Origin: a virus
IMG/VR virus record: IMGVR_UViG_3300004369_000937
Coordinates: 1 to 51,731 of that record
DNA length: 51,731 nucleotides
Direction: 5' to 3' (one strand)
A model generated the notes under the pieces. It worked only from the letters and a program-made list of their open reading frames with translations, made no database searches and was not told where the DNA came from. The translations under genes were made by a program, and so were the position numbers. Shown here one piece after another: positions 9,235-21,379 of the stretch (the stretch's first letter is position 1; each line of letters starts with the position of its first letter).

Positions 9235-11937
9235 ATGTTATTGCGTCCGCGCCAGAAGATATTTGTTGAAAAGAGTGTTGCCGCTTTAAAAGAGCATGGC
9301 AACACTCTTGGTGTTGCGCCGACAGGGTGTCATGCTCCAGGCGCGCCAATACTTATGTTTGATGGCACAGTCAAGAAAGTTGAGGAAGTACAAACTGGCG
9401 ATCTGTTAATGGGGCCAGATAGCACCTCCCGCACGGTACTGGAGCTTCATCATGGACAGGATGAAATGTATGAAATCCGTCCAATTAAAGGTACATCGTT
9501 TGTTGTCAATGGTGGTCATATTTTATCATTGGTAAAAACAAACGAAGGAATAAAAGGTTCTCATGCATGGTCTAGTCCTAGTGGCACGATAACAAATATA
9601 TCAGTAAATAGTTATATACAAACAAGCCACAATTTTAAACATCTACACAAGTTATACAGAGCAAAAGTAGATTTCATGGAGTCAGGGTTATTGCCGCTTG
9701 ACCCTTATTTCTTTGGATTGCTGCTGGGAGATGGAGGGTTAGCGCATGGAACTCCTAATATTACTACCCCTGATCCCGAAATTATTACATACTGTCAGCA
9801 TACAGCAGACTCGTTAGGTTTAACCCTACGCATTGACCAACTTAATGATAACGAAGCAAATACATATTTTTTTGTAAAAGGAAAGAATCGAAAGAACCCT
9901 TTAACAGAAATATTACGCACACTTGCAATATACGGGAAAAAATCGTCTGAAAAATTTTTACCGCAACTATATAAAACTTCTTCATCTAAAGAACGCGCTT
10001 CATTATTAGCAGGATTGCTAGACACAGATGGTCATCTGCAAAGTAATATAATCGAATACTCTACAGCTTCATACCAGCTTGCACAGGATGTTGCCTTCAT
10101 TTCCAGAAGCCTTGGATTTATGGCTCTTCCAAAAGAAAAGATTGTAAACGGAGTTATTTATTATCGTTTTTGTATTTGTGGTGACTTTACAAACATTCCT
10201 TTACGTGTAAGCCGCAAAATTCCTGGTGAGCGCAGGCAAAAGAAAAACCCTCTGCGTACCGGTTTTACAGTACATCAGATGGGCAAAGGTGAATATTACG
10301 GCTTTACTGTAGACTCTGATAATCTTTATGTAATGGGTGACTTTACTGTTACACACAATTCTGGCAAGACTATAATGCTGTCTGGCGTTATAGGTGAATT
10401 GTTAAAGGACAACAGCAGAAAGGCTTGCGTACTTGCTCACCGTGATGAATTAACTGCGCAAAATTGTCAAAAATTCAACAAGGTCAGTCCTACTCTTACC
10501 ACCTCCATTTTTGATGCGGCAAATAAATCATTCTGCGGTGATGTTACCTTCGCAATGGTGCAAACGCTATCTCGTGATAACAGCATCAATTTAATGCCGG
10601 AATTGGATTTACTGGTAATAGATGAAGCGCATCACGCCATAGCTAATGGCTATATGAGAATAATTGATAAAATAAAAGAATTAAATCCTGAGTGCATGGT
10701 CTATGGGGTAACAGCGACTCCAATGCGTGGTGATAAAAAGGGTTTGCGTCCTATTTTTTCCAATGTATCTGATCAAATCACCCTGGAAGAATTAATCGCC
10801 TCCGGTCACCTTGTGCCACCACGCACTTTTGTCGTTGATGTTGGTGTTAGGGAAGAACTTACAAATGTAAAAAAAGTAGCTGCTGACTTCGATATGGGTG
10901 AAGTCGATAAAATAATGAACAAACGGCCTATCACTAATGCGGTTGTAAAGCATTGGAAGGAGAAAGCCGGGGACCGTAAAACCATTGTTTTTTGTTCTAC
11001 TGTAGATCATGCCAGAAATGTCTGCCAAACATTTACAGATGAAGGTGTAACGGCTGTTTTAATTCATGGTGGGCTTTCAAAATCTGATCGTGAAGCTGCA
11101 CTTAAATCCTACGAAGAAGGTGATACACAGGTAATTGTAAATATTGCAGTTCTGACGGAGGGATATGATTATACTCCGACATCATGCGTGGTTTTACTGC
11201 GTCCATCTTCCTATCGATCCACAATGATTCAAATGGTTGGGCGTGGGCTTAGAACAATAGACCCAGCCGAATATCCAGGCATTATAAAAACCGACTGTAT
11301 TATTCTTGATTTTGGCACATCATCGCTAATGCATGGGTCGCTGGAACAATCTGTAACATTAGATGTTAAAGAAACAGATAGCGAAGCACCCAAGAAAGAT
11401 TGCCCTGAATGCAATGCTGTCGTACCCATGAGTGTCAGGGAATGTTCATTGTGTGGTTATGTATGGGAGCAAAAAGAAAGTGAAGAAACAGAAGATGACC
11501 GTCTATCTGATTTTATCATGTCAGAAATCGATTTGCTGGCACGCTCCTCTTTTAAATGGTGCGATATATTCAGCGATGATGCAGCCCTTATCGCTCAAGG
11601 ATTCAACGCTTGGGCAGGAATATTCTTTTTAGAAGGCAGGTGGCACTCTGTTGGTGGTGGCAAAGATTTAAAAACATCCCTTCTATCTATTGGAGAAAGA
11701 ACCGTTTGTTTAGCTGCGGCCGATGACTGGTTAAATGATAATGAAACATCTGACAGTGCGCATAAAACTAATCAATGGCTGAACCAGCCTGCAACATACA
11801 AGCAGCTTAGATACCTACCGACTCATTTAAAAAATGATCATGGACTGACCCGTTATCAGGCATCGGCGCTTCTCACGTTCCAATTTAATAAAAAGAACAT
11901 TCGTAACCTTGTTTTTAATAGCAGGAGGGCGGCATGA
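9235..11937 (+). CDS. SF2 DEAD/DEAH helicase containing an intein
   Basis: This 900-residue precursor carries an intein at residues 32-375, which splits the Walker A motif GVAPTG/SGKT. After splicing the helicase would be 556 residues. It keeps the DEAH box VIDEAHH, motif III VTATPMRGD, and motif VI QMVGRGLR. A C-terminal zinc ribbon has cysteine pairs CPEC and CSLC. It resembles RES/SSL2-type phage helicases placed between the SSB and nuclease genes. It probably unwinds DNA in phage replication or recombination. Without splicing the ATP-binding loop is broken, so activity depends on the intein. Confidence 0.9.
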   Translation: MLLRPRQKIFVEKSVAALKEHGNTLGVAPTGCHAPGAPILMFDGTVKKVEEVQTGDLLMGPDSTSRTVLELHHGQDEMYEIRPIKGTSFVVNGGHILSLVKTNEGIKGSHAWSSPSGTITNISVNSYIQTSHNFKHLHKLYRAKVDFMESGLLPLDPYFFGLLLGDGGLAHGTPNITTPDPEIITYCQHTADSLGLTLRIDQLNDNEANTYFFVKGKNRKNPLTEILRTLAIYGKKSSEKFLPQLYKTSSSKERASLLAGLLDTDGHLQSNIIEYSTASYQLAQDVAFISRSLGFMALPKEKIVNGVIYYRFCICGDFTNIPLRVSRKIPGERRQKKNPLRTGFTVHQMGKGEYYGFTVDSDNLYVMGDFTVTHNSGKTIMLSGVIGELLKDNSRKACVLAHRDELTAQNCQKFNKVSPTLTTSIFDAANKSFCGDVTFAMVQTLSRDNSINLMPELDLLVIDEAHHAIANGYMRIIDKIKELNPECMVYGVTATPMRGDKKGLRPIFSNVSDQITLEELIASGHLVPPRTFVVDVGVREELTNVKKVAADFDMGEVDKIMNKRPITNAVVKHWKEKAGDRKTIVFCSTVDHARNVCQTFTDEGVTAVLIHGGLSKSDREAALKSYEEGDTQVIVNIAVLTEGYDYTPTSCVVLLRPSSYRSTMIQMVGRGLRTIDPAEYPGIIKTDCIILDFGTSSLMHGSLEQSVTLDVKETDSEAPKKDCPECNAVVPMSVRECSLCGYVWEQKESEETEDDRLSDFIMSEIDLLARSSFKWCDIFSDDAALIAQGFNAWAGIFFLEGRWHSVGGGKDLKTSLLSIGERTVCLAAADDWLNDNETSDSAHKTNQWLNQPATYKQLRYLPTHLKNDHGLTRYQASALLTFQFNKKNIRNLVFNSRRAA
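9328..10359 (+). other. intein with LAGLIDADG homing endonuclease
   Basis: This 344-residue in-frame insertion starts with Cys32 and ends in THN, followed by Ser as the +1 extein residue. These are the residues required for protein splicing. The N-terminal Hint block (CHAPGAPILMFDGTVKKVEEVQTGDLLMG) and the C-terminal block (YYGFTVDSDNLYVMGDF) are both clear. Between them lie two LAGLIDADG-type motifs, FFGLLLGDGGL and LLAGLLDTDGHL, each with its acidic residue. The homing nuclease therefore looks intact. Insertion in the Walker A loop is a favoured intein site because its DNA is highly conserved. Confidence 0.92.
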
Positions 11938-17038: not shown

Positions 17039-17308
17039 AAATATTGTTCGCGAACACTTTTTTACTGAACAGATTTGACAAGATCGGTTATATTGGTACA
17101 TACAATCGGGAGAGATGTACGTTACATGGTTTGTTAACCAATAAAAAATAGTTACTCCGTGGCATAAAAATATTACGGGTGACTAAACCCCGAAACTTGC
17201 CTAGCGGTAGAGTTTTTAACTTCCTTGACAGCCCATTAACAAAAAATGCTGCAGACGACACGTCGCAGCAAGCCGTATTACTATAAACTTACTCAGAAAA
17301 TTATAAAA
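17039..17308. promoter_or_regulatory. 270-base intergenic region with perfect palindrome
   Basis: The perfect 12-base palindrome TGTTCGCGAACA lies at 17045-17056, just after the DUF6362 stop. A TTGACA hexamer is found near 17085 with TACAAT about 20 bases later, which is a poor promoter fit. No convincing terminator or RNA gene is visible. The palindrome is a good operator candidate, perhaps for DUF6362 or an XRE protein. The frame of the next gene is open from an upstream ATG at 17246, so part of this gap could be coding. Confidence 0.4.
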
Positions 17309-18547
17309 ATGACTGCACTTACAATTGAAAATTGGAAGCTGGATAAATTTGTGCCTTACGCACGAAACCCAAGGAAGAACGATGATGTCGTAGAAAAAAT
17401 GTGCGGCGCAATTCGTGAATTTGGATTCAGAATTCCGATAGTTGCAAGAAGTGACGGCACGATTGTTGATGGTCATTTGAGACTCAAAGCAGCTTGTCAA
17501 CTGGCACTTGACACAGTGCCGGTAGTTTTAGCTGATGACTTGACAGACACTCAAATAAAGGCATTCAGGCTTCTGGCTAATCAATCTGCTAATTGGGCTG
17601 ACTGGGATGATGATCTTCTAAAGCTGGAAATAAAGGATTTACAAGATCTAGATTTTGACCTTGATCTTACAGGCTTTGACCTTGAGACAATCGAACAATT
17701 ACTTGAGGCTAAGCCACAAGATGGTTTGGTTGACGATGATGCTACCCCTGAAGTTGATAATAAAAATGCACCTATCTCAAAACCCGGTGATATCTGGGTG
17801 ATGGGTGACCATCGCCTGATATGCGGAGATTCAACATCGCTAGATGTAATCGAAAAACTGATGGCCGGCTCGTTAGCTGACATGGTATTTACTGATCCTC
17901 CATATAACGTAAATTATGGTCAAAGTATGAAAGACTCTTTGCGTGGTAACGATGGGCATAAAAATTACGCAGGAAGCCAGCCCGGCCGCACAATTATGAA
18001 CGATAATCTTGGCGATGAGTTCTACAATTTTCTTCTTAGCACATGCCAAAATATGATTAAAGTGTGCAAAGGCGCATTATATATTTGCATGTCATCTTCT
18101 GAATTACATAATTTGCATAAAGCCTTTACAGAGGCTGGAGGCCACTGGTCAACATTCATAATCTGGTCGAAAAACCATTTTACGATGGGTAAAGCTGATT
18201 ATCAAAGACAGTATGAGCCAATACTTTATGGCTGGCCTGAAGGTCAAAAGCACTACTGGTGTGGAGATCGTAATCAAAGCGATGTGTGGAATATTAAGCG
18301 CCCACATACTAACGATTTACACCCCACTATGAAGCCGGTAGAGCTTGTACAAAAGGCCGTTGAAAATAATAGCAAAAGCCGTGATATTATTCTCGATCCA
18401 TTTGGTGGTTCGGGATCTACTATTATTGCTTGTGAAAAAACCGACAGGTCGGCAAGGCTTGTTGAGTTAGATCCTAAATATTGTGATGTAATTGTAAAAA
18501 GATGGGAGGATTATTCTGGTGGGGAAGCGCACTTGGAAAGTGATTGA
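17309..18547 (+). CDS. ParB-domain DNA methyltransferase (N6-adenine or N4-cytosine)
   Basis: This is a 412-residue protein from the ATG at 17309; an ATG at 17246 would add 21 unusual residues. Residues 1-100 form a ParB/sulfiredoxin-like domain (YARNPRKND, then TIVDGHLRLKAA). The C-terminal part is a methyltransferase with the catalytic DPPY in MVFTDPPYNVNYG and the AdoMet motif DPFGGSGST, in the order of the beta class. Such fusions are common in phages. They probably modify phage DNA against host restriction or take part in regulation. No matching restriction endonuclease lies nearby. Confidence 0.9.
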   Translation: MTALTIENWKLDKFVPYARNPRKNDDVVEKMCGAIREFGFRIPIVARSDGTIVDGHLRLKAACQLALDTVPVVLADDLTDTQIKAFRLLANQSANWADWDDDLLKLEIKDLQDLDFDLDLTGFDLETIEQLLEAKPQDGLVDDDATPEVDNKNAPISKPGDIWVMGDHRLICGDSTSLDVIEKLMAGSLADMVFTDPPYNVNYGQSMKDSLRGNDGHKNYAGSQPGRTIMNDNLGDEFYNFLLSTCQNMIKVCKGALYICMSSSELHNLHKAFTEAGGHWSTFIIWSKNHFTMGKADYQRQYEPILYGWPEGQKHYWCGDRNQSDVWNIKRPHTNDLHPTMKPVELVQKAVENNSKSRDIILDPFGGSGSTIIACEKTDRSARLVELDPKYCDVIVKRWEDYSGGEAHLESD

Positions 18548-20054: not shown

Positions 20055-20152
20055 TTCTTGACCTTAAGTTATATCAATATGATGCCCTGGAAAGTGGCGT
20101 CTATCAAGTCATGTTATGATAAATAAGCAGCTAATATAAATGGATTGTGCGG

Positions 20153-21379
20153 ATGAAAAAGCCTTTAAAAGTGCTGGATATTTTTTCTGGCATTGGAGGC
20201 TTTAGCATTGGTTTAGAAAATGCAGGAATGGAGACAGTAGCGTTTTGTGAAATTGAACCATTTGCGCAAGATATATTAAATAAACATTGGCCGCATACCA
20301 GAGTGTTTACTGATATCCGTATTTTGAATAGTGATACTTTACTTAAAAGTGGGATAGCAGAAATAAATATTATAGCCGGTGGTTTTCCTTGCCAGGATAT
20401 TTCATGCGCAGGAAAACAAGCCGGCATAGACGGTAATAGATCAGGGCTGTGGAAAGAATTCAAGAGGCTAATAGATGAACTTCGCCCAGATTACGCAATT
20501 ATCGAAAACGTGGCAAACCTTCGAAGTCGTGGACTTATCACCGTCCTGCAAGATCTATGGCAGATCGGGTATGATGCACAGTGGCATTGCATACCGGCTG
20601 CCTCCGTTGGCGCTCCTCACAGACGGGATCGCATATGGATCGTGGCCTACCCCAACAGCAAGAGCAACATCGGATTGCCCTGCAGAGAGAAGACGACACA
20701 CGCCATGTCTGGAATCGGCAGTAAAAATATTTCCGACTCCAACAGCGCGGGATGCAACAATAACAAAGGCACGTCCACCGAAGAAAATGATCCGAAAGGA
20801 TGGCAGGAATGTTCTGCGGACTCCATCTCTGGCAGAAACATTGCTACAGGAGAAGGACTTTCCTTACACAAAACAAGACCTGAAAAAGAAACAAAACCAA
20901 CAGAATTACAAAATAGCAAAACAATTCTGGCCAACTCCGACAGCACAAGGACGATGGGCATCGGAAGGACAGATAACAAAGCTTCGCAAAAAGGTGGATG
21001 CAAAAGAACTGACGGTGGAAGAAGCCGAAGCAATGATAGAGGGCAGCATAACGCCGGCGAGAATGAAAAAATGGCCTACACCAACGGCCAGGGATTACAA
21101 GGATACAGGCAATTTGAAGAAACTTGCCAAATACTCACACAAGAAGAGATTGGCTTGTTCTGTCGCAGCAGAGGAATTGAACAATGGGGAACTGAACCAG
21201 ACACAGTTCCAAGACTTAAAGACGGAAGATTAAATCCTGATTGGGTAGAGTGGCTGATGGGTTTTCCTATTGGTTGGACTACTGGCGGAACGCGAAAACA
21301 AAGGCTGGTTGCTCTTGGTAATGCTGTTGTTCCATTTATTCCTGAACTAATTGGATTTGGTATTGCTAAATGGAACTAA
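20153..21379 (+). CDS. DNA (cytosine-5) methyltransferase
   Basis: This is a 408-residue protein; a GTG two codons upstream is an alternative start. The main C5 motifs are present: motif I FSGIGGFSIGLE, motif IV GGFPCQDIS with the catalytic cysteine, motif VI IIENVANL, motif VIII HRRDRIWIVA, and C-terminal RLVALGNAVVP. Between motif VIII and the C-terminus lies a variable region of about 200 residues with repeated (A/L)(Y/N)-x-NS-like units. That would be the target-recognition part. This region is also open in another frame (see 20475-21233). The gene overlaps the small terminase start and presumably protects phage DNA before packaging. Confidence 0.9.
   Translation: MKKPLKVLDIFSGIGGFSIGLENAGMETVAFCEIEPFAQDILNKHWPHTRVFTDIRILNSDTLLKSGIAEINIIAGGFPCQDISCAGKQAGIDGNRSGLWKEFKRLIDELRPDYAIIENVANLRSRGLITVLQDLWQIGYDAQWHCIPAASVGAPHRRDRIWIVAYPNSKSNIGLPCREKTTHAMSGIGSKNISDSNSAGCNNNKGTSTEENDPKGWQECSADSISGRNIATGEGLSLHKTRPEKETKPTELQNSKTILANSDSTRTMGIGRTDNKASQKGGCKRTDGGRSRSNDRGQHNAGENEKMAYTNGQGLQGYRQFEETCQILTQEEIGLFCRSRGIEQWGTEPDTVPRLKDGRLNPDWVEWLMGFPIGWTTGGTRKQRLVALGNAVVPFIPELIGFGIAKWN
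20475..21233 (+). other. overlapping 252-codon ORF with WPTPTARD repeats
   Basis: This long open frame lies entirely inside the C5 methyltransferase gene in another frame. Its product carries four (W/F)PTPTA motifs at 20643, 20730, 20928 and 21072. It is preceded by RSGMMHSGIAYRLPPLALLTDG, a segment I recognise from stand-alone phage proteins with the same WPTPTARD repeats. The methyltransferase frame over the same bases is also family-like. Both frames therefore look like real protein sequence. Whether this frame is translated is unknown; no good ribosome site precedes its ATG. Confidence 0.4.

Follow-up and report, generated by a model that had tools for sequence, protein, structure and literature searches.

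The C5-cytosine methyltransferase gene of the virus record IMGVR_UViG_3300004369_000937 is under selection in two overlapping reading frames, referred to here as alpha (the methyltransferase frame) and beta (an ORF in the +1 frame), with defined points at which selection passes from one frame to the other, an alpha frame that is read through without stops, a conserved start for beta, and sequence modules that are reused between enzymes. Our preferred reading, to which we would give a probability of around 80%, is that the gene encodes a two-subunit C5 methyltransferase, in which alpha would supply the catalytic part and beta would take charge of target recognition in trans. Positions are those of the window, i.e. 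the whole stretch of 51,731 nucleotides that was analyzed, a virus record with a lambda-type terminase and a portal; the features of the gene are collected in Table 1.

Table 1. Features of the two overlapping frames in the window.
Feature	Positions	Strand	Basis or remark
Alpha, C5-cytosine methyltransferase frame	20153..21379	+	ATG at 20153; alternative start GTG at 20147
Alpha parts in order: motifs I-VIII, unselected filler, motifs IX and X			Filler: substitution pattern
Alpha motif VIII (GAPHRRDRIWIV)	20609..20644	+	Sequence, read in alpha frame
Motif IX (LNPDWVEWLMGFPIGW), alpha frame in window	21230..21277	+	Alpha-frame substitution pattern
Motif X (LVALGNAVVPFIPELIG), alpha frame	21305..21355	+	PF00145 match and substitution pattern
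Stretch with amino-acid selection in beta frame only (alpha filler)	20641..21180	+	Difference rates at alpha positions
Beta, +1 ORF, 252 aa	20475..21233	+	ATG directly 3' of in-frame stops
Putative Shine-Dalgarno (SD) of beta, AAGAGG	20462..20467	+	Within alpha codons K-R
Beta lead-in (MNFAQITQ...SGMMHSGIAYRLPPLALLTDGIAYGS)	20475..20642	+	Same bases as alpha motifs VI-VIII
Module 1, beta frame (WPTPTARATSDCPAERRRHTPCLESAVKI)	20643..20729	+	Kin modules in relatives
Module 2, beta frame (FPTPTARDATITKARPP...AKQF)	20730..20927	+	Module comparison across arrays
Module 3, beta frame (WPTPTAQGRWASEGQ...PARMKK)	20928..21071	+	Module comparison across arrays
Module 4, beta frame (WPTPTARDYKDTGNLKKLAKYSHKKRLACSVAAEEL)	21072..21182	+	Terminal module in at least 44 arrays

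Two open frames in one methyltransferase gene

Alpha matched PF00145 over residues 7-397 (2e-48) and TIGR00675 (1.1e-39), and PDB sequence searches with its catalytic part led to HhaI/HaeIII. The catalytic motifs of PF00145, IX and X included, lie in the alpha frame, which places the protein among the C5 enzymes; no selected variable region or target-recognition domain (TRD) was found in alpha between VIII and IX, where the usual single-chain form has it. Upstream of the gene, positions 17246-18547 encode a ParB_N domain fused to an N6/N4 DNA methyltransferase, with a like neighbor in locus L060. A helicase-like protein (ResIII/Helicase_C) with Hint and LAGLIDADG domains is encoded at 9235-11937, and this combination in a phage helicase is, on its domain content, an intein.

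The initial annotation had reported a second open frame of 759 bases with (W/F)PTPTA motifs at 20643, 20730, 20928 and 21072, and these coordinates proved exact; the ORF (20475-21233) has 252 codons and is +1 relative to the methyltransferase frame. When the sequence was shuffled synonymously so as to preserve the alpha protein, a mean of 5.6 stops appeared in the +1 frame, which was open in none of 2000 trials. Searches with tblastn in viral contigs gave 80 relatives of alpha, and the +1 ORF with its PTP motifs was kept in each of the 42 homologues that were scored. In the five closest (L002-L006) beta was 71-91% identical to that of the window, whereas alpha, encoded by the same bases, was only 56-70% identical. 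The PHROG profile phrog_1008 matched beta residues 27-102 (1.9e-12), in agreement with the earlier proposal that the WPTPTA reading represents a real protein family; it matched the C-terminus of alpha as well (residues 344-396, 3.6e-11), so that one known family holds both pieces in a single frame. No known domain was found in beta, PDB sequence searches with it gave chance matches only, and a text search for 'WPTPTA' in the literature available to us found no mention; the GeneTack survey and a frameshift review contain nothing on the subject. AlphaFold gave no usable model of the modules for the window beta (30 homologues, mean pLDDT 49), and in the actinophage relative L094, modeled with a mixed alignment, pLDDT was below 50 for residues 190-346, where the modules are located.

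The beta ATG occupies the same position in nearly all homologues and is preceded by AGAGG or GAGG. The Arg codon at the putative SD site was AGG in 37 of 42 homologues, compared with 36 of 308 other Arg codons (P=3e-24, a value that is overstated because the homologous loci are related and not independent). Among the loci listed for the wider family, the beta start was accompanied by an SD-like sequence in 220 of 243, and the rate of such sequences per start codon was 20% in the beta frame against 9% in the third frame. In the lead-in, the rate of alpha-synonymous, beta-nonsynonymous changes fell to 0.24, from 0.58 upstream. A comparable drop (0.35 vs 0.75) was seen in a control pair from Vibrio phages, in which the enzyme is of the ordinary kind with its variable region in frame, so the lead-in rate alone is no proof of initiation at 20475. 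In these two Vibrio phage C5 enzymes (L264, 1790-2152; L265, 1799-2158) the +1 ORF was open for about 120 aa, with a beta-like lead-in, and there were few synonymous changes in motifs VI-VIII. The resemblance among beta lead-ins is largely forced by their overprinting on those motifs.

Selection in each frame and read-through of alpha

Difference rates at alpha codon positions 1, 2 and 3 were 0.18/0.13/0.49 before beta and 0.10/0.01/0.27 in the lead-in overlap, shifted to 0.36-0.44/0.13-0.16/0.02-0.16 over 20641-21180, and were 0.10-0.16/0.09-0.13/0.35-0.47 from there to the end of the gene. The wobble position thus moves to the third position of beta across the modules and returns before motif IX, the switch points given by the substitutions being 20641 and, for the return, about 21180. 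The dNN/dNS values of beta were 0.08-0.24, and alpha was weakly constrained in the overlap (0.39-0.81). Changes that alter alpha and are silent in beta amounted to 0.49-0.65 per site over 20641-21120, compared with an upstream synonymous rate of 0.58-0.61; since these rates are about the same, the amino acids of alpha in the filler are not selected. This affects the AYPNS, NSDST and AYTNGQG units, which the initial annotation had read as recognition units of the methyltransferase: they are WPTPTA modules seen out of frame and are not conserved as protein, and the first two were rejected as true recognition units because the alpha amino acids there drift at the neutral rate. The idea that both frames are maintained by selection was, on the other hand, borne out by the substitution pattern, dNN/dNS, the shuffles and the homologues, which keep both frames open and not the methyltransferase frame alone; nor do synonymous changes freely disrupt the WPTPTA frame. 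In loci resembling M.EcoHK31I in motif layout, the beta frame was coding in the module region in 57 of 57 independent pairs (0.370/0.119/0.093), with motif IX selected in beta and motif X in alpha.

The number of alpha-frame stops to be expected was obtained from shuffled sequences in which the beta protein and the codon usage were kept. Among the loci listed, a single stop was seen in the 50 with a window-like layout against 186.5 expected, and two in the 184 EcoHK31I-like ones against 648.5. Taken together, the 234 read-through loci listed had three stops, where about 835 were expected, and 231 had none. The five loci in which IX and X are both in beta had 29 alpha stops, compared with 41.6 expected. 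Alpha is free of stops only where motif X must be reached, and the five loci serve as an internal control by which read-through is told apart from chance, which argues against synthesis by frameshifting only.

Layouts and modules in relatives

Patterns derived from single sequences recovered two loci, and profile searches hundreds at the least. The census comprises at least about 255 loci and was seeded with +1 proteins, hence it does not represent a share of all C5 enzymes. At least about 240 loci, spread over phages and many bacterial phyla, had the modules in the +1 frame. Among the approximately 255 loci listed, modules and IX were in the +1 frame and X in frame 0 in 183, the layout of the window (modules in +1; IX and X in frame 0) was present in 51, and five had modules, IX and X all in +1, as in genes 43/44 of Arthrobacter phage Andrew. 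In eight actinophage loci (L093-L100) the modules belong to the alpha frame, where they lie between VIII and IX and are under alpha-frame selection; in seven of these loci there is, in addition, a short ORF in the +1 frame containing one or two PTP motifs. The same mixture of alpha-frame modules and a +1 ORF with PTP motifs is found in the mycobacteriophages ShiLan and VRedHorse, and part of the PTP modules in the +1 ORF with the rest in alpha was also observed in L093 (2341-2775), L262 (698-1156) and L261 (956-1324). In Paenibacillus phage Tadhana both overlapping CDS were annotated by the depositors. On a tree of the catalytic domain at least nine layout changes are needed, and the window layout arose at least twice. 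The actinophage methyltransferases of L097 and L099 carry a large insertion between VI and VIII, open in the methyltransferase frame and perhaps an element of the ShiLan type; a frame encoding HNH was not identified in it.

The suggestion of an independent WPTPTA family, also made in the initial annotation, did not hold. In the loci examined the modules belong to a C5 methyltransferase gene, in most cases sharing bases with the catalytic motifs by way of the +1 frame and otherwise read in the methyltransferase frame, and no stand-alone family has been found so far outside such genes.

Taking a module as the stretch from one PTP motif up to the next, at least 705 modules were counted in at least 251 arrays, with a median length of 36 aa and mostly one to six per array. 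Close relatives differ by the presence or absence of entire modules (A1), and modules at least 65% identical are common to enzymes with a catalytic identity of 0.31-0.46. Module 1 of the window is also present in L007, L023 and L060, and in the alpha frame in gp5 of Gordonia phage Leonard. The largest module cluster, with 183 members, was obtained by single linkage and mixes module types. Tandem exchangeable modules in the variable region, reused between distant enzymes, are what characterizes a TRD array and, to judge from these comparisons, the modules are lost and gained, and turn up again in distant enzymes, in the manner of tandem recognition domains.

A proposed two-subunit enzyme and known systems

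Beta is most likely the target-recognition subunit, translated in its own right from a conserved ATG and working in trans, a role suggested by the actinophage PTPTA modules, which sit between VIII and IX, in the position of the TRD. The modules may have a TRD fold, but AlphaFold gave no confident structure for them, which counts against this reading. Alpha (frame 0) would form the catalytic domain with motifs I-VIII and, in the window, also IX and X; between them, the module DNA would be read out of frame to give the unselected filler. Translation of beta would start at ATG 20475 with the aid of the SD-like sequence, and the array of four PTPTA modules would assemble with alpha in trans. DNA would be recognized by the modules, each of them probably one exchangeable cassette, so several short sites may be methylated (multispecificity), and methylation could protect the phage from host restriction; the likely role of the C5 enzyme is that of an orphan phage methyltransferase, shielding phage DNA from restriction. 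Because the large domain resumes past the small domain, alpha must cross the DNA of the latter, and it does so in the other frame; in most loci listed the frame division follows the line between the two domains. The window beta lacks motif IX and yet is strongly selected, which indicates that the modules matter without it. Docking to alpha would also have to do without IX, a point that counts against the two-subunit reading.

The selected frames trace exactly the path of a single polypeptide made by two ribosomal frameshifts (frame 0 to VIII, +1 across the modules, frame 0 for IX-X), and the actinophage relatives do hold all parts in one frame. We nevertheless regard this explanation as unlikely, for it leaves the stop-free alpha across the modules (231/234 loci listed), the conserved beta ATG and the AGG codon unexplained, and the return point would have to vary, being before IX, between IX and X, or never. 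Less probable still is that both proteins are made and beta is independent, for instance an anti-restriction or regulatory factor merely overlapping the enzyme gene. The failure of AlphaFold to give a TRD-like fold and the lack of a known domain in beta would fit this possibility, but relatives carry the same modules within the methyltransferase chain, which disfavors an unrelated nested gene, motif IX of the enzyme is also in beta in 183 loci listed, and alpha would be left without a selected variable region. That sequence composition by accident opened the +1 frame over an otherwise ordinary methyltransferase could be argued from the lead-in, whose likeness is largely forced and is shared by Vibrio phages with ordinary enzymes; however, a chance ORF was ruled out by the shuffles in both directions, and these results, along with dNN/dNS and the 57 of 57 pairs, make such an accident hardly credible.

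Besides the two-subunit reading of the window gene itself, we think there is a good chance that a widespread class exists in which the whole TRD, as an array of exchangeable cassettes, is encoded in the +1 frame and supplied in trans, the variable region of the large subunit being filler kept open to reach X. To our knowledge, overlapping genes with both products in one enzyme, split along its domains, are very rare. The frame boundary has moved several times here, in phages and many bacterial phyla, so the arrangement can be dissected by comparison. Many phage 'cytosine methyltransferases' would then be annotated in one frame only, with a meaningless variable region, site predictions from the alpha variable region would be void, and the modules would be small, exchangeable candidates for DNA recognition, available as a natural set.

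With respect to known families and enzymes, phrog_1008 ('DNA methyltransferase', 329 positions) covers the beta lead-in and modules (102-178) and the IX/X region (238-307), a profile that in the window is split over two frames; the library entry is silent on the overlap. The TRDs of the Bacillus phage enzymes SPR, phi3T, SPbeta and H2 lie in one frame and in one chain. These enzymes have tandem TRDs and several recognition sequences (PMC8936443), and the window gene resembles them in its tandem array and differs in having it in the +1 frame. In the ShiLan element, an HNH endonuclease is encoded in an alternate frame of the methylase of a mycobacteriophage (PMC11855218); this is again a second real protein in another frame of a phage methylase gene, but it is a homing insertion and not a portion of the enzyme. 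In gp70, the ShiLan methylase, PTP modules are read in the alpha frame and two further ones in a +1 ORF; the passages of PMC11855218 that were consulted do not mention them.

In C5 enzymes the large domain consists of motifs I-VIII and X and the small domain of the variable region and IX, recognition is mediated by the variable region between VIII and IX, and two-polypeptide enzymes and trans-complementation are known (PMC3404938). M.AquI (CYCGRG) is formed by two polypeptides divided in the variable region (PMC3404938). Genes 43/44 of phage Andrew are like it (alpha with I-VIII; beta with modules, IX and X), whereas the window alpha continues across the module DNA as far as IX and X, and the window beta is made up of lead-in and modules. 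The smaller polypeptide of M.EcoHK31I is presumably encoded inside the larger gene in another frame, and in the window, too, selection in both frames points to a second protein nested in the alpha gene in another frame. The larger polypeptide of M.EcoHK31I (YGGCCR) holds motifs I-VIII and X and the smaller one IX (PMC3404938). This layout is shared by the 183 relatives listed, with IX in the small subunit, whereas in the window IX is in alpha; the likeness is one of motif layout. The literature places the TRD of M.EcoHK31I, as a prediction, in the large subunit, whereas here it is the small one that carries the selected variable region; if M.EcoHK31I is a member of the class, the published TRD assignment would be in the wrong subunit.
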